Of a stretch of DNA of 50,352 nt, positions 32,046 to 46,406 are shown in pieces. Position numbers and translations under genes: made by a program. The notes under the pieces were generated by a model. The model was not told the origin of the DNA. It did not search any database and was given only the letters and a program-made list of their open reading frames with translations. The DNA is from Ignavibacteriae bacterium HGW-Ignavibacteriae-2 (GTDB taxonomy: Bacteria; Bacteroidota; Ignavibacteria; Ignavibacteriales; Melioribacteraceae), in contig PGYT01000016.1 of assembly GCA_002839805.1 (NCBI GenBank), positions 1 to 50,352 of the forward strand, given 5' to 3'. The stretch's first letter is position 1; each line of letters begins with the position of its first letter.

Positions 32046-32297
32046 AAATTATTGAAAATAAATATTTTAGAGCTACGTAAAATATTAAAATTATACTTAA
32101 TTACAAACATAGAAACAAGTTATAAGGATTACTTGTTATTTTTTTTCGTTTATTCTGTTTACCAATAATACAAAATCATTAGTGTTTATTTTAAAAGTAT
32201 TCATAAAATCAATGTATTTATGTCCCATTTTGATACTTGATCTCAATTAGAATACAAAAAATCATTTAAAACAGCTTAATATGTTCGAAATGTGCTA
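32046..32297. other. Divergent intergenic region
   Basis: The 315 bases between the HU gene (minus strand) and the gene at 32346 (plus strand) contain no reading frame. They hold the HU promoter on one side and the sigma-54-type promoter on the other. The AT-rich stretch between them is where an upstream activator site for sigma-54 would be expected, but I see no clear palindrome there. Confidence 0.5.
32090..32118 (-). promoter_or_regulatory. Promoter of the HU operon
   Basis: TTGTTT (32118-32113) and a perfect TATAAT (32095-32090) on the minus strand are separated by exactly 17 bases, the ideal sigma-70 spacing. The predicted leader is about 50 bases. This is the best housekeeping-type promoter seen in the window. 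Confidence 0.65.
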
Positions 32298-32313
32298 TGG
32301 CATATTCTTTGCA
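32298..32313 (+). promoter_or_regulatory. Sigma-54-type promoter
   Basis: TGGCATATTCTTTGCA matches the sigma-54 consensus TGGCAC-N5-TTGCA: GG at 32299-32300 and GC at 32311-32312 are 12 bases apart, and TTTGCA is intact. The only consensus change is T for C after TGGCA. Transcription would start near 32324, about 22 bases before the gene at 32346, which has its own GAAGGAAA binding site. Confidence 0.7.
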
Positions 32314-32345
32314 TAATAATGTGAAAAATTACTGAAGGAAACATA

Positions 32346-32834
32346 ATGTCACTTATACCTATCATCTACACCAGCCTACTGATATTCAGCGTAGCCTTCT
32401 TAGCTGTTTTAATTATTTCTTACATTTCGTACAAAATAAAGCAGAGCAGCAGTGTTGCTTATGTTACTCCGAAAAATAGAGTACCGTCAGAGCAAAAAAT
32501 TCCATACGTACAGAGGCCTGTTTATAATCCAAAACCACAAGAATTTGAGTCGGATCACTATTCAAGAAGAAGAGAAGTTCGCCCTTATTCACAAACAAAC
32601 AGTGTTTATTATAGAAACGAACGAAATATTGGTAACAAAAAAATTGATATTATTTATAAAGAAAAACCTCGCACAAACCAACCTTCATTGAAAGCAACCA
32701 GAATGAATATAATTGATGACTTAAGTACAAGACCACAAAGAACTGAAAGAACAAGATCGTATACAGAAGCAAGACAATTAGAGTTTTCAAATTTTGCAGA
32801 AGGCAATATTCTTAGGTATTACGAAGATTTTTAA
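32346..32834 (+). CDS. N-anchored basic protein of unknown function
   Basis: I do not recognise the family. The 162-residue product has one hydrophobic segment at about residues 5-30 (IYTSLLIFSVAFLAVLIISYIS) and then a hydrophilic, Arg/Lys/Tyr/Pro-rich tail. The tail has no obvious domain and probably stays in the cytoplasm as a disordered region (RRREVRPYSQTNSVYYRNER). The C-terminus ends with an ordered-looking LEFSNFAEGNILRYYEDF. A near-consensus sigma-54 promoter lies just upstream and three hairpins just downstream. The gene at 32934 encodes a protein with a similar plan. Start ATG with a good GAAGGAAA site. Confidence 0.75.
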   Translation: MSLIPIIYTSLLIFSVAFLAVLIISYISYKIKQSSSVAYVTPKNRVPSEQKIPYVQRPVYNPKPQEFESDHYSRRREVRPYSQTNSVYYRNERNIGNKKIDIIYKEKPRTNQPSLKATRMNIIDDLSTRPQRTERTRSYTEARQLEFSNFAEGNILRYYEDF

Positions 32835-32835
32835 A

Positions 32836-32883
32836 TAATAAAAGGCCCCACTTTTTATTAACAATAAGATACCCAGCTTATTG
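32836..32883 (+). promoter_or_regulatory. Two AT-stem hairpins in the 3' untranslated region
   Basis: TAATAAAA (32836-32843) pairs with TTTTATTA (32853-32860) around GGCCCCACT. CAATAAG (32862-32868) pairs with CTTATTG (32877-32883) around ATACCCAG. Both loops are C-rich. Together with the following terminator they give three stem-loops in a row directly after the sigma-54-driven gene. Confidence 0.5.
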
Positions 32884-32884
32884 A

Positions 32885-32914
32885 AACCTCTTCAATTTTG
32901 GAGAGGTTTTTTTA
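32885..32914 (+). terminator. Intrinsic terminator after the sigma-54-driven gene
   Basis: AACCTCT (32885-32891) pairs with AGAGGTT (32902-32908) around a ten-base loop and runs into a T-tract. It lies just before the next plus-strand gene, whose start must therefore be the ATG at 32934 rather than an upstream codon inside the hairpin. Confidence 0.75.
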
Positions 32915-32933: not shown

Positions 32934-33323
32934 ATGAATTTAAACTACATTATATATTTATCCGCCTTAGCTTTAATAATAGTTGTATCCTTTTTTTTTG
33001 CGTCAACTTATTACTGGTCAAAATTAAAAAAGAATAAAAACCAGAAAAAAGATATAAATTCAACAATACGTGGACGCAAAACAAACAGAATATCTCACCA
33101 TTTATCGAGAAAAAAAATTTTGGGCGGAAGTTTTGCCGATACAATTGAAATGAAAAAAACGAGAGCTCAAAAAGCTAAAAACGAAAAATCTAAATTCAGA
33201 AACACGAATAATATATCAAATAAAAAACCGAGAATAACGATAGTTAATGATAATCCGGAACTGAACAAAAATATGCCTGATACTGGAAAGATTAGTGGAC
33301 AAAGTTACGATTTTAAAAAGTGA
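32934..33323 (+). CDS. Second N-anchored basic protein of unknown function
   Basis: No family is recognised. The 129-residue product has an N-terminal hydrophobic segment at about residues 4-22 (NYIIYLSALALIIVVSFFFA). The tail that follows is strongly basic and rich in Lys, Arg and Asn (KNKNQKKDINSTIRGRKTNR, KKTRAQKAKNEKSKFR). The plan resembles the gene at 32346, but the two sequences are not obviously homologous. The ATG at 32934 has AGGGAA upstream. An extension to 32898 would begin inside the terminator and add a poor N-terminus. A nucleic-acid or ribosome-binding tail anchored at the membrane is possible from charge alone. Confidence 0.7.
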   Translation: MNLNYIIYLSALALIIVVSFFFASTYYWSKLKKNKNQKKDINSTIRGRKTNRISHHLSRKKILGGSFADTIEMKKTRAQKAKNEKSKFRNTNNISNKKPRITIVNDNPELNKNMPDTGKISGQSYDFKK

Positions 33324-40800: not shown

Positions 40801-41325
40801 TGACAATTTTAGCTGTCCGATTAAAGCGTTTACAGATCCCACTACACGAATGAGATATTTAATATCTTCATTTTCTGCAGAAATTAAACACTTATTTATA
40901 TGATCCATTATTTCTTTTTCAATTAATTCTTTTGCGGCTGAAGGATCTATTAGAGTAAAACCAGCGTCAAGTCCGGCCTGAGGCGAAAACTCACGTAAAA
41001 GTTCGGAGCAGAATGAATGGATTGTGGAAATTTTAGCCGATACTAACTGACGTCTTATTCTCACAAGTTTATTTAGAAGTTTACCATCGCTTTCAGTCTC
41101 TATTCTGGAATCGATTTCTTTCGCAATTTTTTTATAAAGTTCCGAAGCGGCTTTATCTGTGAATGTTATAGCCACAATCGAGTTAAGAGAGATGTTTTCT
41201 GTTAGAGCTATTTCAACGAATCTTTTAGCAAGTACAAAAGTTTTGCCCGAACCGGCATTAGCTGTTAATAATATATGTTTTTTAAAATCGAGTGCTTCTA
41301 TTTGGTAAGGGGTTAGAAGAGTCAT
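37810..41325 (-). CDS. AddA/UvrD-type helicase with C-terminal Fe-S PD-(D/E)XK nuclease
   Basis: A 1171-residue superfamily 1 helicase-nuclease expected to resect double-strand DNA ends for recombination. The Walker A TANAGSGKTF has its Lys at 28. The Walker B is YFMIDEFQDTNE. Helicase motifs V and VI are seen in NLMTIHQSKGLEYKAVFLFN and RLLYVAVTRAVNNLYICGS. The nuclease contains D1056 in GIIDKI and D1069-Y-K1071 in VVDYKTDK. Four cysteines (928, 1157, 1160, 1168) are placed as in AddB/Cas4-type iron-sulfur nucleases. AddA normally lacks the cluster, so this may be a stand-alone enzyme. No AddB gene is in the window. The start overlaps the kinase stop by one base. Confidence 0.9.
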   Translation of the reverse strand: MTLLTPYQIEALDFKKHILLTANAGSGKTFVLAKRFVEIALTENISLNSIVAITFTDKAASELYKKIAKEIDSRIETESDGKLLNKLVRIRRQLVSAKISTIHSFCSELLREFSPQAGLDAGFTLIDPSAAKELIEKEIMDHINKCLISAENEDIKYLIRVVGSVNALIGQLKLSLNKIKTVRLVYEKIKDAETEFIENEYRREFNELYSSVIEKRIDNLLKLVSEINAEVFARDKSNNIAIEVKKILNSLVGKYGAENNYGLLINLQALIFTQKNELRKRGYLNKDVEMFQSFQTSLQNFYKDLKFFEWNEDSAKAEKTLAHFGKILINNIIEISDNYTITKKKYGYLDYEDLLHFSEILIQNENVRNSLAEKYNYFMIDEFQDTNETQYNIFIPILNNLNSGNLFVVGDEKQSIYMFRDAELKVFQKTKEIIEEKSTASGILQLPHSFRVSPKIAFFCNQIFSRLFADPDVGFNEVEASNLVSTREDVETGEIQFLLINPESSNSEANLVALKIIELVNSKVLELRDIAILVRKRKSFDELEKELTQYNIPYNIIGGKGFYQQQVVSDVYSYLSFIINPSYDSALVAVLRSPFYTLSDDLIFDIAKENGLNYFEKLKLYGHKNILVNKTFNLIQNHLIISRKIDLPELIRIILRDTDYWSVISTRSNHKQQIANLNKLLNQAKQYNKHSFKSIYDFVDYLKNAIDQGEDEGQAQIPDETNSVNLMTIHQSKGLEYKAVFLFNCHLKGMVDSVKSKSITVDKEYGVLAKLPNNSDYFNEFISAPILGAYDYKSFRKTIAETKRLLYVAVTRAVNNLYICGSTVGPVAQNSFLSLIAEGLNFGGIVEGFDIKGDLQFLTNQNEKFIFNTKQISVKIPVINHLENISPKNDFEKFEEEKFKRVIDTDKITSTTKNEIISATKINIFTQCPLKYHLTYNLGYTSLFKRFNFYENSYLNSIEDEETIVPSDLKGRIIHEILEKEIAPSNIETEVEKAIRSELVNSGEVSLSNLISEISNTLKSFINSEVYKEISSMEKYKNEFELYLKMTDFYLYGIIDKIIFAEDKLIVVDYKTDKINSTTSVEKFNYYKNQLLFYAFIANRYFDKQKPVEIRLIYIDQPELSLSEIISSDILNNFSSSLEGTINSIRNNNYPKNFSHCQKCHFAIKNKCVVK

Positions 41326-44300
41326 TAATTTTTAACCGGGAATTTAATTATTAAAGTTGTTCCTTGAGAAGAAGTTTCCTCAATAGAAAGTTCTGCACCT
41401 ATCAAATCGAAAAAACGTTTTGCCATATGCAACCCCAATCCCATACCTTCTATTTTGGTTGTAAAGTTAGCATCAAAAATTCTGTGCTTAATGTTACCCG
41501 GAATCCCCTGTCCGTTATCCTTTACTCTAAGCATTATATATTCGGGGTTAGAATTTATAATAAAATAGACTTTATCAGCGCTGGCTTGTATTGAATTACG
41601 AATTAAATTTACAAGAGTTCTTTGAAGTTGTTCACTATCCGCTTCAACTAAACAATTATTTTTTTCCAAAATATGAATTATTTCAATTCTCCCATCCGAA
41701 TACAAATTAGTAACATTATTTATAGTATCTACAAGATTAACTTTTTCTTTTTTAAGATCAGGCATTTTAGCAAAATTGGAAAACTCAGACGCAATATTTT
41801 TTAAAATATCAATTTGTTTAATAACCGTATCGGTAACTTTATTAAATATATCCTCGTATTTAGGAGAGTTGTCTTGCTTAGCGGCTATTAATTGCTGAAC
41901 CGCTAATTTCATTGGAGTTAACGGATTTTTAATTTCGTGAGCAACCTGTTTCGCCATATCCCGCCAAGCGGCTTCTCTTTCCATTTCCGCCAATTCTTTT
42001 TGATTTTTATCCAATTCTTTTACCATTATATTAAAACCATCTACAAGTTCACTTATTTCTCCCCTAATATTTTCATCAACAGAAATGTTTAAGTTTCCGG
42101 CAGCTACAGCCTTTGTTGCATTTGTCAGTTTTCGTATGGGGTAGGATATCTGATTAGCTAGAATTGTACTAAAAATTATTATAAGCAAAATAGCAAATGA
42201 GTAACTGCCAAACAGAAAAATATCAACTTCAAGAGCGCTCATTGGCAATTGTATAGAATTAAAAACATCACTCACTTTAATCAAATAATTCCGCCCGCCA
42301 ATATTTGCTTTGTGATAGAAGGAATGATAATCATAATTTTCAATTTGTTCGTCCACCACATATTCGGAAAGTCCTGTTAATACAAAATTTTTATATACTT
42401 TTGCATTTAATATTGGTGAAATAAGTCCTATATCATAATATATTTGTTCGGAACTGAAGATCAGATTTTTGTCTGTGTACAAGTCAAAATTAATTCCTAA
42501 ATCCCTTGTTGCCTTTTCCAATGTAGTATAGCTGATAGAAGAATCCGACAAAGCATACTCAGTTAAAAATTCCTCCACATTATCGGCTCTTTTACCAAGT
42601 TTATAATAAATTGCCGCCGTATTTTTTTCTTCAGTTAAATTCCTGAAATAAAATGCCAACAAAACCAGCGGTAATGTGGAAATAAAAATGAAAGCTACAA
42701 GGAGTTGTGTTCTGAATGAATACCGCAGCTGAAAAATTTTCCTGAAATAAAAAATGTAGCCGATAAATAAACCAGTTAAAATAAATATTGAATGAACAAG
42801 AAATATTTTAAAAAAATCGAATAAACTCCATGACAAATCTTTCTCTGCGAGTGCGACGGCAATTATTCTGTTTTTAAAATCATTTTTTATTTTTTTTACA
42901 TATACTATGTGTTCAATATTATTTAGGGGGATGTTTAACCAGGCTTCGTTGCGCAAATTAAACTGAGCGTTTAATATAACATTGGTTTCGTGCTTAGAAA
43001 GGATCAAATCAGTATAATAGTTTACAAGTTCATTATTCTGAAAATCGAATATTTTAAGTTGCTTAATATTAACGGGACTATCTTCCAAAGCTTTTGAAGA
43101 AGTGAAAAAATCCGGATTTTCTTCGAATCCCAACGAATACATATCAAGCAAGACCGAAACTTCCAGATAACCGAGTAAAATATTTTTTTTATATAAAGGC
43201 TGAATTGCACGAATAATTTTATTAGGCGAATAAGTAATAAATGTGTTTGTTATTCTCAATTTGGTTAAAGAGTCGCCGGGTTCAGACCAATCCCACATAT
43301 AATTTTCGTAGAACTGGTATCCATACTTACCAAGCAGCATTTTATCCCGTCCAATAATATTTACAAGCGAACTTATATTTTCTTTTTCGAACTGAGAGTT
43401 ACTCCACAACTGAAAAGCGATAGCGTTGTAATTTTTTTTATCATTGTTGCTAAGATGATTTATAATTTTATTCTGAAATTCTTCATTCTCAACAGTTGTT
43501 TTTACAAGTTGTTCTATATACTCCTCTTCAGGTTTAACAAATTGATATGCAGTAGTTAATAACGATTTTTTCTCGTAATCCGAATTATAGTAAGTAAGAT
43601 AACTTATTGTTATAAGTGAAGTGAGGAATAGGATTGAAACGGTAAAGGTGGCAGATACGCTTTTTTTGTCCAATAAATGATAAACGAAAATAAATATAAT
43701 AAGTATGGAAATAATTCTTAATAGAGGTGTGCCCTGCGGTTGTTTCTGAAACAAATCGAAAACCAATGCCATCAACTGAAATAAAACAAAAGTTATAAAA
43801 AACGCTTTAGTTCTTCCGGAGTTAAAAAGTTTTTCCCAAAAACTTACAAAAAGTATTGAAACAAAAACTAAAATAAGTACAGAAGAAATTCCAAGTATAA
43901 GAATATTAAAATCCATTAAAAGCGTCGGCAAATCCGGTAATAGAGAAGGGTATTTAAAATACCGTAAAGTGGATTCAAAAATAATGCTTCTAATAGAGGC
44001 CCCGAAACCTCTTAGTATTAAAATAAAAGACAGCAATAAAAATGGACAAATAATAAAATACACCCATCTTTTAAAATTTAATTCCCTATTATCTTTCAGA
44101 TATTGAATAATGTATTTTAGAGCGTTAAATAGAATTAAAATAATTATTAAACTGGTTACAAAAAACTCGAGAGGCGATTTAACCATTCCAAAAGCAAATT
44201 CAGAGGAAAAATATTCAGGATTACTTAAATCTGTGTCAACAATTTTCGAAGGGATTCCGAATAAAAATAATACTATTCTGAATAGCAATAAATAAGCGGA

Positions 44301-45137
44301 TGAAACAATAAATTTAAAAGTTCTTAAACGGAATAAATTTTTATTTTTATAAACGAACAGACCTACAAGCAACATTACAGCTATAATAAAATATGATTCA
44401 ATTCGTGTAAATGTTTCTCTAATAGAATTGATATAAGCTATTCGTGATGGTCTGTCAACAGTTACATATGCAATTGTATTATTAAAGGAATTGTAAACAG
44501 GGAATGCATATTTTCTACCGTCTCTTTCAGCCTCTTTTGTTGAAACAAATTCTACCAGAACTCTCGTGTTAAATTCTTTACTTAATCTTTCTGAAATGCT
44601 GATTGGTTTATAATATTTACTGCTTAATGAGTAACCTTTTTCGAAGGGTAAACCTATATATATTTTGTAATCGCCAATTGTATCATAGGCAGTATAGAAA
44701 ACTACGAGGTCTCCCTGGTAAAAAAAACATTCATTTTTCTTAAACACATTATTCGAATTAAAATTACCGCTAAGATTCCCCGCACTTGACCATGCAATCA
44801 GTTTGTCGTCTTTGTTATAAACCTGATAGAGGTATTGGCTGTATTTAACATCTTCAATTAACCCCATTACAATAACAATATCAGAGTCGTTTTCTATTTT
44901 AATTTTTCCAAAATCGGCTTTAAATTCAGCTAATTTTTCAATCAGATTTTTCTGATATTCGTTGAATATTTCGATGGTACCTGTTTCTATTTGGGATATC
45001 TTTTTTTGTGATACGGTCTTCCAATCGGCGGTGTATTTTTCAATTATTAGCGGTGTAGCTAAAGCGGTCAGAATTGTTAATATGAGTAAGATTAAAATAC
45101 TAAATAGTATAGACCGGTTTTTATTTATTAGCTCCAT
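41325..45137 (-). CDS. Very large NtrY-like sensor histidine kinase
   Basis: A 1270-residue multi-pass kinase. A transmembrane segment (9-31) and an extracytoplasmic domain (about 32-245) are followed by some eight membrane segments (248-513). A second extracytoplasmic domain comes next, then two further membrane segments, a third extracytoplasmic region, a transmembrane segment near 975-993 and a HAMP domain (994-1045). The DHp domain has H1067 in VAHEIKNPLTPMKLAVQQL. The ATP-binding domain has N-box RTLVNLIRNSIQAS, DNGQGIPG and GMGLGLHMAKRFF. The closest family is NtrY, although three sensor segments is unusual. No response regulator gene is adjacent. Its stop overlaps the helicase start (TAATG). 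Confidence 0.92.
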   Translation of the reverse strand: MELINKNRSILFSILILLILTILTALATPLIIEKYTADWKTVSQKKISQIETGTIEIFNEYQKNLIEKLAEFKADFGKIKIENDSDIVIVMGLIEDVKYSQYLYQVYNKDDKLIAWSSAGNLSGNFNSNNVFKKNECFFYQGDLVVFYTAYDTIGDYKIYIGLPFEKGYSLSSKYYKPISISERLSKEFNTRVLVEFVSTKEAERDGRKYAFPVYNSFNNTIAYVTVDRPSRIAYINSIRETFTRIESYFIIAVMLLVGLFVYKNKNLFRLRTFKFIVSSAYLLLFRIVLFLFGIPSKIVDTDLSNPEYFSSEFAFGMVKSPLEFFVTSLIIILILFNALKYIIQYLKDNRELNFKRWVYFIICPFLLLSFILILRGFGASIRSIIFESTLRYFKYPSLLPDLPTLLMDFNILILGISSVLILVFVSILFVSFWEKLFNSGRTKAFFITFVLFQLMALVFDLFQKQPQGTPLLRIISILIIFIFVYHLLDKKSVSATFTVSILFLTSLITISYLTYYNSDYEKKSLLTTAYQFVKPEEEYIEQLVKTTVENEEFQNKIINHLSNNDKKNYNAIAFQLWSNSQFEKENISSLVNIIGRDKMLLGKYGYQFYENYMWDWSEPGDSLTKLRITNTFITYSPNKIIRAIQPLYKKNILLGYLEVSVLLDMYSLGFEENPDFFTSSKALEDSPVNIKQLKIFDFQNNELVNYYTDLILSKHETNVILNAQFNLRNEAWLNIPLNNIEHIVYVKKIKNDFKNRIIAVALAEKDLSWSLFDFFKIFLVHSIFILTGLFIGYIFYFRKIFQLRYSFRTQLLVAFIFISTLPLVLLAFYFRNLTEEKNTAAIYYKLGKRADNVEEFLTEYALSDSSISYTTLEKATRDLGINFDLYTDKNLIFSSEQIYYDIGLISPILNAKVYKNFVLTGLSEYVVDEQIENYDYHSFYHKANIGGRNYLIKVSDVFNSIQLPMSALEVDIFLFGSYSFAILLIIIFSTILANQISYPIRKLTNATKAVAAGNLNISVDENIRGEISELVDGFNIMVKELDKNQKELAEMEREAAWRDMAKQVAHEIKNPLTPMKLAVQQLIAAKQDNSPKYEDIFNKVTDTVIKQIDILKNIASEFSNFAKMPDLKKEKVNLVDTINNVTNLYSDGRIEIIHILEKNNCLVEADSEQLQRTLVNLIRNSIQASADKVYFIINSNPEYIMLRVKDNGQGIPGNIKHRIFDANFTTKIEGMGLGLHMAKRFFDLIGAELSIEETSSQGTTLIIKFPVKN

Positions 45138-45272: not shown

Positions 45273-46106
45273 TTATCTTGAGATTATGTTTACTGCTGTC
45301 GGTTTTACAGTTCTTGACTTTGGAACTTTTGAGTTTTTGAGAAGTGTCTCACCTTCTATTAACTGATAAGCCCAATCAAATGTCATCCTCTGATTTAGAA
45401 TATCTTTAATTCTAATTTTAGCGAAATGATTATCTTTAGTCCATATTACATATGTATGTCCTTTCTTCGCTTCAAGATATTTAATGTTATCTCCAGGAAA
45501 TTTTTCAACCCAACCAGTATAAGGAGCTTTTACGATATCATATATATTTACTGTTGATCCCATATCCTGAATATCCGTGTCTTCCCAAACATTCAGATAA
45601 TAGGTTCCATTGTAATTTTCAAAGAAAAAATCACTGTCATAATCATCAAAGGGAACAACGCTAAATTCTGCAAAACTATAACCAGCTGAGTTGGGGAATT
45701 TTAGATAATCAAATATTGCCTGGTTAAATCCTTCCGGTCTTGCAATACCAACAACAGTATTATTACTTAAATCGCTTTCATTTCCATCATAGTCATATGC
45801 GGTAACGGCGTAATAATATACATCGCCGTTTTTTGCGTCAAAGTCCACATAATAATTTTCTTCGGTACTTCCGATTAATTCGAATTTGAAGTCGTTATAA
45901 CTAAAATAGACATTATAGCCCGCAAGATCCGATTCACGATTATTATTCCAGGTCAGGTCAATTCTGCTATCACCCGTAATAGCTATCACATTTTGAGGTG
46001 CTTTAGGGGCGTCATAATCATAATAATCTCTGTTGTCTCCATGGCACGCTGTCAATAAAATCGAGGCGGCAATTGATATTCCCAATAATATTTTTCTGCT
46101 TTTCAT
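45273..46106 (-). CDS. Fibronectin type III lipoprotein
   Basis: A 277-residue surface or periplasmic lipoprotein. A signal peptide ends in the lipobox LTAC (about residues 18-21). It is followed by one fibronectin type III domain with the typical APQNVIAITGDSRIDLTWNN, SDLAGYNVYFSY and VYYYAVTAYDYDGNES segments. The C-terminal 150 residues have no recognised domain; they include YSFAEFSVVPFDDYDSDFFFEN and KGHTYVIWTKDNHFAKI. The family is common in Bacteroidota and Ignavibacteria, where FN3 domains support adhesion or polymer binding. AGGGGG precedes the ATG. A strong terminator follows. Confidence 0.8.
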   Translation of the reverse strand: MKSRKILLGISIAASILLTACHGDNRDYYDYDAPKAPQNVIAITGDSRIDLTWNNNRESDLAGYNVYFSYNDFKFELIGSTEENYYVDFDAKNGDVYYYAVTAYDYDGNESDLSNNTVVGIARPEGFNQAIFDYLKFPNSAGYSFAEFSVVPFDDYDSDFFFENYNGTYYLNVWEDTDIQDMGSTVNIYDIVKAPYTGWVEKFPGDNIKYLEAKKGHTYVIWTKDNHFAKIRIKDILNQRMTFDWAYQLIEGETLLKNSKVPKSRTVKPTAVNIISR

Positions 46107-46406
46107 TGTATCCCCCTTATTTGTGTTTTAGCTAATTAAATCAATTGTAATGCCAAACTATTTCGTTTAAAAGTAGCCCACTTTAAGGGAAATAAACCAC
46201 GATTTAGATTTATTCATTCTTTAACTGTCGTAAATTGTATACAGATATGCATATTAGAGTTTACATCAAACACTATTTAATTTCGGTTATAAAAATTAAT
46301 TTATTGATTTTTTTTAAACTGGGTTCGCAACTATTTTGATGTTAGACTGACGGGATTAAAAATAGGTCTGCTGCAATATGATGGATATTTAGCTACAATT
46401 TATAAT
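46107..46406. other. Intergenic region, no gene seen
   Basis: These 300 AT-rich bases between the lipoprotein gene and the small secreted protein gene show no supported reading frame. On the minus strand, at 46155-46141, there is a degenerate sigma-54-like sequence (TGGCATTACAATTGA) in front of the lipoprotein gene, with A instead of C in the -12 element. No hairpin terminator for the gene at 46407 was recognised. Confidence 0.4.

Follow-up and report, generated by a model that had tools for sequence, protein, structure and literature searches.

Sigma-54 (RpoN) promoters with NtrC-type enhancers are known from the PspF, NtrC and NifA systems, and the canonical sigma-54 promoter consensus is TGGCACG-N4-TTGCW. 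The locus described here is like those systems in having a -24/-12 element at the canonical spacing, a dyad about 60 bp upstream of the -24 element, and a genome with rpoN and many activators. It is unlike them in that the C of the -12 element is relaxed in the orthologous promoters and the target genes are unnamed. The promoter is of a known kind; the enhancer dyad is newly described, and the conserved target family, represented here by the neighboring genes A and B, has no name.

In Flavobacterium psychrophilum, the sigma-54 regulon comprises envelope stress, gliding and adhesin genes together with exported proteins of unknown function, and three activators are predicted (PMC9723704). Both cases concern sigma-54 of Bacteroidetes, whereas the genes differ, and the accessible part of that report does not mention the A/B family (PMC9723704). 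Sigma-54 has also been described as a controller of the bacterial exterior with a predicted link to envelope, lipoprotein and surface genes (PMC3162934). That work, in its accessible part, is a general survey which names no such family but fits several other sites found here. The main text of PMC12316311, as far as it is accessible, makes no mention of Ignavibacter- or Melioribacter-, and a search of the accessible literature returned no paper that linked sigma-54 to Melioribacter, or RpoN or sigma54 to Ignavibacteri-.

The circuit described below, consisting of a dyad, a promoter, a target pair, paralogues and a shortlist of nine activators, is predicted from sequence and is directly testable. 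Conditional expression would provide a first handle on a conserved, unnamed protein family.

A predicted sigma-54 promoter ahead of gene A

The window, which is the whole stretch of 50,352 nucleotides analyzed, contains the 16-mer TGGCATATTCTTTGCA 32 bp upstream of the ATG of gene A, an open reading frame of 162 amino acids (Table 1). The original prediction had read this 16-mer as a sigma-54 promoter with GG and GC at 12-base spacing and an intact TTGCA, followed by a ribosome binding site. The letters agree with that description: GG and GC are 12 bases apart, counted from first base to first base, which is the exact -24/-12 spacing, TTGCA is intact, and AAGGA lies in front of the start codon. 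After TGGCA, the site reads TA where the canonical consensus has CG. Because of the GG/GC spacing, the transcription start is predicted at about the position listed in Table 1.

Table 1. Features of the A/B locus, in coordinates of the window
Feature	Position	Strand	Basis
Enhancer-like dyad GTCCCATTTTGATAC	32222..32236	+	k-mer enrichment, then dyad scan of orthologous promoters
TCTCA, possible extra half-site just past the dyad	32241..32245	+	k-mer count; role inferred
Predicted sigma-54 -24/-12 promoter TGGCATATTCTTTGCA	32298..32313	+	sequence, conservation, spacing control
Predicted transcription start (near)	32324..32324	+	sigma-54 spacing rule (GG at -25/-24, GC at -13/-12)
Ribosome binding site AAGGA	32335..32339	+	sequence
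Gene A (ATG at 32346), 162 aa: predicted N-terminal membrane helix, tail, RMNIID motif, C-terminal RYYEDF	32346..32834	+	ORF, alignment, structure prediction
Hairpin resembling a terminator, with T tail; lies between A and B	32883..32910	+	consensus match only
Gene B, 129 aa: predicted helix, basic tail, RITIVN motif	32934..33323	+	ORF; blastp cluster

A pattern scan found the exact TGGCA-N6-TTGCA once in the window, at TGGCATATTCTTTGCA, against an expectation of 0.1 from 200 first-order shuffles of the window, while the looser TGGYA-N6-TTG was found 5 times vs 3.0 expected. A lone exact site is by itself only moderately unlikely. The site stands far above chance because relatives keep it ahead of that gene as well (in 29 of 36 loci, with a shuffle expectation of 0.46% per gene). 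We consider it very probable that TGGCATATTCTTTGCA is a genuine sigma-54 promoter on which gene A depends, and the proteins behind it are probably made only under some particular condition.

A second sigma-54-like site, TGGCATTACAATTGAT, was seen in the window at 46140-46155 (-), 33 bp ahead of the ATG of a lipoprotein-like open reading frame of 277 amino acids (45273-46106, -); no dyad was found at this site. An NtrY-like kinase, which the original prediction had called suggestive only, is located at 41325-45137 in the same window.

Conservation of the promoter in relatives

In the relatives set of 77 genomes, own genome included, a single-protein search found a homologue of the gene A protein in 35. 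A profile search matched 30 of 197 genomes of the class, with 29 in the window's own order and 1 doubtful match outside. The upstream regions of the first family gene per locus were taken from the 35 fetched homologue regions and the window, which gave 36 regions; among these first genes, L152 and L154 are weak homologues, and L153 and L155 lie away from the HU place. In 29 of these 36, window included, TGGYA-N6-TTG was present no more than 100 bp ahead of the gene, and the 29 promoter-bearing loci span 23 genera.

The same pattern was absent from the opposite strand of the first-gene upstreams (0/36) and from the upstreams of second genes (B; 0/16, a set outside which the window's own B lies). 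It was also absent ahead of the control genes HU (0/28), guaB (0/20), mraW (0/15) and pepF (0/18, 2 of these without upstream sequence), where the first start codon in each frame served as the gene start, so that some upstream regions of these four genes may be misplaced. HU was named by Pfam, and guaB, pepF and mraW are what we take the other control genes to be. When the spacer was varied, a spacing of 6 gave 29/36, and spacings of 3, 4, 5, 7, 8 and 9 gave 1, 0, 0, 0, 1 and 2 of 36, respectively. The core pattern was derived from the same promoters that were later counted, a circularity which the spacing, other-gene and shuffle controls answer in part.

The end of the site lies 25-46 bp from the ATG in 28 of the 29 promoters. 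The outlier, L133, has a distance of 53 bp, belongs to a B-type gene and lacks the dyad described below; its site is probably a chance match. Conservation of the GG and GC elements, which the original prediction had called for, was found in part. The TGG of the -24 element and the TTG of the -12 element are kept in 23 genera, TTG being present in 29/29 by construction of the set. The GC dinucleotide of the -12 element is not kept across the orthologous promoters, though it is present in the window: the 29 sites continue after TTG with T (14), G (6), C (5) or A (4). Variation at this C is common among sigma-54 promoters, and we therefore do not regard its loss as disqualifying.

Seven loci had no site. 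Five of them (L127, L139, L144, L148 and L150) carry B-type genes with a MELLP/MDLLP or similar start and have no A neighbor in the stretch seen. In G011, whose genome is 86% complete, the promoter is present and rpoN gave no match. G020 (99% complete) likewise gave no rpoN match, and it has a lone B-type gene without promoter and without dyad. This genome was at first considered a natural experiment, but we place no weight on it: G043 belongs to the same genus and lacks the promoter although it has rpoN, and G020 keeps an L073-type activator.

A dyad upstream of the promoter

When k-mers were counted on either strand upstream of the promoter, TGATAC was found in 22 of 45 regions vs 2.7 expected, and GTCTCA in 14 of 45 vs 1.7 expected; the two combine into a dyad. 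In the window, GTCCCATTTTGATAC matches the dyad consensus GTYTCA-N3-TGAKAC with one mismatch and ends 61 bp ahead of the T of TGGCA. Among the 29 promoters, the dyad was present with 0-1 mismatch in 14 (0.13 expected) and with at most 2 mismatches in 22 (1.4 expected from shuffling), and 7 had no dyad within 2 mismatches. Since the consensus came from the same sequences, these counts are partly circular, to which the gap, coding and shuffle controls give a partial answer. The gap of 3 is specific, as other gaps from 0 to 9 gave at most 1/29 reaching 1 mismatch, and coding controls contained a dyad with at most 2 mismatches in 1/52.

The distance from the dyad end to the -24 element is 59-63 bp in 15 of the 22 promoters, the others being at 41, 51, 52, 68, 69, 71 and 83 bp. 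No dyad within 2 mismatches was found in the 8 loci without a site or with a site at an odd distance (the seven above and L133), the scan of L148 having covered 220 bp only. For family-like genes elsewhere, the dyad was present in 10/16 promoters at distances of 43, 50, 50, 51, 51, 51, 51, 61, 68 and 116 bp, and the six at 50-51 bp come from two genera only (g2 and g35). A shift from about 61 to 51 bp would equal one helical turn, fitting an activator bound on one face of the DNA. The TCTCA just past the dyad stands at the same place in several orthologues, and TCTCAA or its complement occurs in 15 of 29 A-type upstream regions of 150 bp vs 4.4 expected.

The dyad is no general mark of sigma-54 promoters, because only 1 of 23 candidate sigma-54 sites in the surveyed own-genome stretches, that of the window, has it within 1 mismatch. 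The promoter of a paralogue on contig 5 of the own genome has a dyad with 3 mismatches. The combined pattern GATAC-N38..68-TGGYA-N6-TTG gave 8 matches in the own genome, in 2 of which, the window and the contig 5 paralogue, both elements lie outside long frames. Sites at kelch genes (L109 of the own genome and L295 of G008) were rejected as members, as GATAC appears within the coding sequence of the preceding gene (confirmed for L109). We know of no characterized activator whose site GTYTCA-N3-TGAKAC matches. The sigma-54 reading of the original prediction is thus joined, at the level of sequence, by an upstream activator-type dyad at a near-fixed distance, which most likely is the site of the presumed activator (EBP).

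Proteins A and B

A proteins share a plan of a helix, M[ST]LLPIIYTSLxIF...SYISYK, a variable tail and a motif R-[IMFY]-x-[IV]-[ILVM]-N, to which exceptions exist; at the C terminus, [FY]Y is in most cases followed by an acidic stretch. B proteins have the same plan and mostly start with MELxPII. In 16 of 36 loci, the N-terminal profile picked out neighboring pairs of family genes, 45-253 bp apart. This profile missed the B protein of the window, which clusters by blastp with the same-place genes of G001 and G002, and which we placed with the B type by its predicted helix and RITIVN motif.

AlphaFold, run on A alone as a single sequence, predicted a helix at residues 4-35 with high confidence, gave low confidence for most of the rest, and indicated a possible hairpin at 88-105. 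The tail is probably disordered, as judged from this model. Lysines after a membrane helix point to an inside tail by the positive-inside rule, and those of A suggest that its tail is cytoplasmic. The A protein of the window had no Pfam or NCBIfam match at E 0.1, and the other members of the 23 tested gave scattered single or double matches only (best E 0.0023 in Pfam and 0.00094 in NCBIfam). A sequence search found no PDB relative of A (best match E 0.12), and a plasmid search gave no match. The product of gene A had been called an unknown membrane-anchored protein, and its single predicted N-terminal helix and lack of a Pfam or NCBIfam name are in keeping with this.

It is uncertain whether A and B are co-transcribed, because a terminator-like hairpin lies between them. 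Similar hairpins after A were seen by eye in the same-genus G002 (L033) and in G007 (L035).

Alternative explanations and proposed mechanism

A 10-of-10 match in AT-rich sequence could be a chance product without a role, since 0.1 exact matches are expected in sequence of the window's size and such sites are not rare in the own genome: TGGYAN6TTGCW gave 34 matches vs 8 for the reversed pattern, a weak control in which dinucleotides are changed, and 90 of 113 looser sites fail the filter given in the last section. The fixed spacing and the position ahead of homologues in 23 genera have, in our view, already refuted this reading, to which we give practically no credence. Gene A might instead be read from a housekeeping promoter of the Bacteroidota type, with the TGGCA/TTGCA pattern incidental. 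The consensus of such promoters is TTTG at -33 and TAnnTTTG at -7; the -12 region of the window, TATTCTTTGC, resembles the -7 box with one base too many, and look-alikes are common in low-GC sequence. In the window, however, the 100 bp ahead of A contain no TAnnTTTG, which was found in 4/36 upstreams (2/36 for its reversal) vs 29/36 for TGGYA-N6-TTG, the spacing of which is fixed to the base. A housekeeping promoter is accordingly very improbable.

The -24/-12 site might be real and the dyad a repressor operator or a part of the divergent HU gene, as the dyad lies within the divergent HU-A intergenic region and dyads of such size are bound by many regulators. Against this, the distance from dyad to -24 element is near constant, six paralogue promoters of the two genera g2 and g35 have the dyad at 50-51 bp without a visible HU neighbor, and the 8 loci without a proper site lack the dyad although HU still adjoins the gene in 5 of them. 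Sigma-54 promoters moreover require an activator, usually bound upstream. We regard an operator or HU element as improbable, and a different reading of the target genes, as parts of a copper or metal response, as more improbable still. The latter draws on a cluster (c3) that is present in 16/36 loci and follows the pair in several relatives, and whose translations show GMTCASC metal-binding motifs and P-ATPase-like sequence; from these translations, we take its genes to be an HMA-AraC regulator and a CopA-type P-ATPase. However, c3 is not present in the window or in the loci of G001 and G002, which are of the same genus and have a cupin or nothing between B and guaB, and the paralogues adjoin TPR and other genes instead.

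A sigma-54 promoter with a dedicated enhancer remains the best explanation, and we hold this regulatory part to be highly likely. In the mechanism we propose, sigma-54 RNA polymerase would sit at the -24/-12 site and wait. An activator of the NtrC family, switched by a signal, would bind the dyad and perhaps also the TCTCA beside it, touch the polymerase via DNA looping and open the promoter, with transcription starting near the predicted position. The transcript would yield A and, through read-through of the terminator-like hairpin, some B. Both would span the inner membrane once, with short conserved motifs carried on disordered tails that probably face the cytoplasm.

The original prediction had named nitrogen, envelope stress or surface behavior as possible roles; these were guesses, and the scant evidence leans to envelope or surface. 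A role of A and B there is plausible, if short of probable. That they act as membrane-tethered adaptors, recruiting a partner in an envelope or surface response, is a more tentative suggestion, this functional reading being built on architecture and weak neighborhood leads.

rpoN and candidate activators

The own genome (G000; 4.16 Mb, 147 contigs, the window being bases 1-50352 of contig 121) has one rpoN match (E 3.9e-59). Across the whole relatives set, which includes the own genome, rpoN was found in 75 of 77. PF00158, the sigma-54 activator domain, gave 29 matches in the own genome; it also matched in all 14 control genomes, so that weak matches are other ATPases. The best 24 of the 29 all matched one NtrC-type activator by blastp, three of them being partial or divergent. 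The rpoN and activators that the original prediction had wished to see are accordingly encoded in this genome.

When the 24 own activators were compared by reciprocal best hits with 17 from G008 and 21 from G034, 9 proved common to the three genomes (L062, L064, L067, L069, L070, L071, L076, L077 and L081 in the own genome). Self-regulation gives no pointer to the activator, because among 67 activator loci the dyad occurred within 1 mismatch once (L327 of G008), without a sigma-54 site beside it. L067 is about 366 amino acids long, which leaves no room for a receiver domain, and activators of its type (L067, L313 and L326) lie directly ahead of a lipoprotein gene in all three genomes. The conserved order in these genomes includes a lipoprotein that we take, from its sequence, to be LptE-like, and a presumably glycosyltransferase-like gene. 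Because of this envelope link, L067 is our first guess for the activator of the dyad promoter.

The L073 type was rejected as the general activator: it passed the cut-off of E 1e-150 in 21/48 genomes and did not pass it in the promoter-bearing G001, G002, G003, G008 and G010. In G045, a relative of L073 (73% identical to the own L073) lies beside a family member, and in G047, an L073-type activator lies about 1 kb from a family gene. Activators of this type may matter in this family.

Family-like genes and other sigma-54-like sites

Family-like genes elsewhere, in 20 further loci, had the exact site in 16/21, a count that excludes six matches under 8 bits and one duplicate row for the L195 gene. 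One of the 16, L202, is next to HU, and its place marks it as an A gene. Among the 5 without a site, L200 is off by one base, and L197 and L198 look like another family. Together with L154, these two were picked up by the N-terminal profile as a look-alike family (MELIPIL[AS]TIILV...) without a sigma-54 site, which is probably unrelated to the A/B family. The own paralogue on contig 5 (L184) has 154 amino acids and is followed by a TPR gene and then by a gene with a GSARSKP motif, which we take to be LOG-like.

The own-genome survey covered fetched stretches (465 kb, with overlaps, of 4.16 Mb). Stretches around pattern matches and activators, together with the window, contained 113 distinct TGGYA-N6-TTG sites and are a biased sample. 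Of these sites, 23 are not inside a long frame and are followed by a start codon. The targets of these 23 sites include lipoprotein-like and exported proteins (by eye), a kelch T9SS protein, a GAF histidine kinase, a glycosyltransferase and a solute-binding protein. This agrees with the proposal that sigma-54 governs the exterior of the cell (PMC3162934) and with its control of envelope, gliding and exported proteins in a flavobacterium (PMC9723704).

A search of ten relatives gave 36 matches, 30 of them with loci examined, and among these 30 the dyad was present within 1 mismatch at three A genes, one paralogue and one other gene, in G010. This last gene (region 1498-6784 of L300) encodes an adhesin-like protein of 1722 amino acids with SdrD-B, choice-of-anchor A, thioester and T9SS sorting domains, and it is preceded by a perfect dyad and a sigma-54 site at a distance of 61, in this one genome only. 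A wider reading, which we offer as speculative and rather unlikely in its entirety, would be an activator-dyad-sigma-54 regulon across Melioribacteraceae and near relatives. Its main targets would be A, B and the paralogues, as a new family of disordered adaptors tethered to the membrane, joined in one genome or more by a giant thioester-type adhesin that is secreted. The regulon would serve as a switch for the envelope or for surface attachment, and the receiver-less activator with the LptE-like gene might run it.

In L298 (G237), a dyad with 2 mismatches and TGGCACGTTGCTTG were seen on the minus strand at about 1500-1580, upstream of an apparent rpmH. No open reading frame of 50 amino acids starts within about 110 bp of TGGCACGTTGCTTG, and this site possibly drives a small RNA or a very short peptide.
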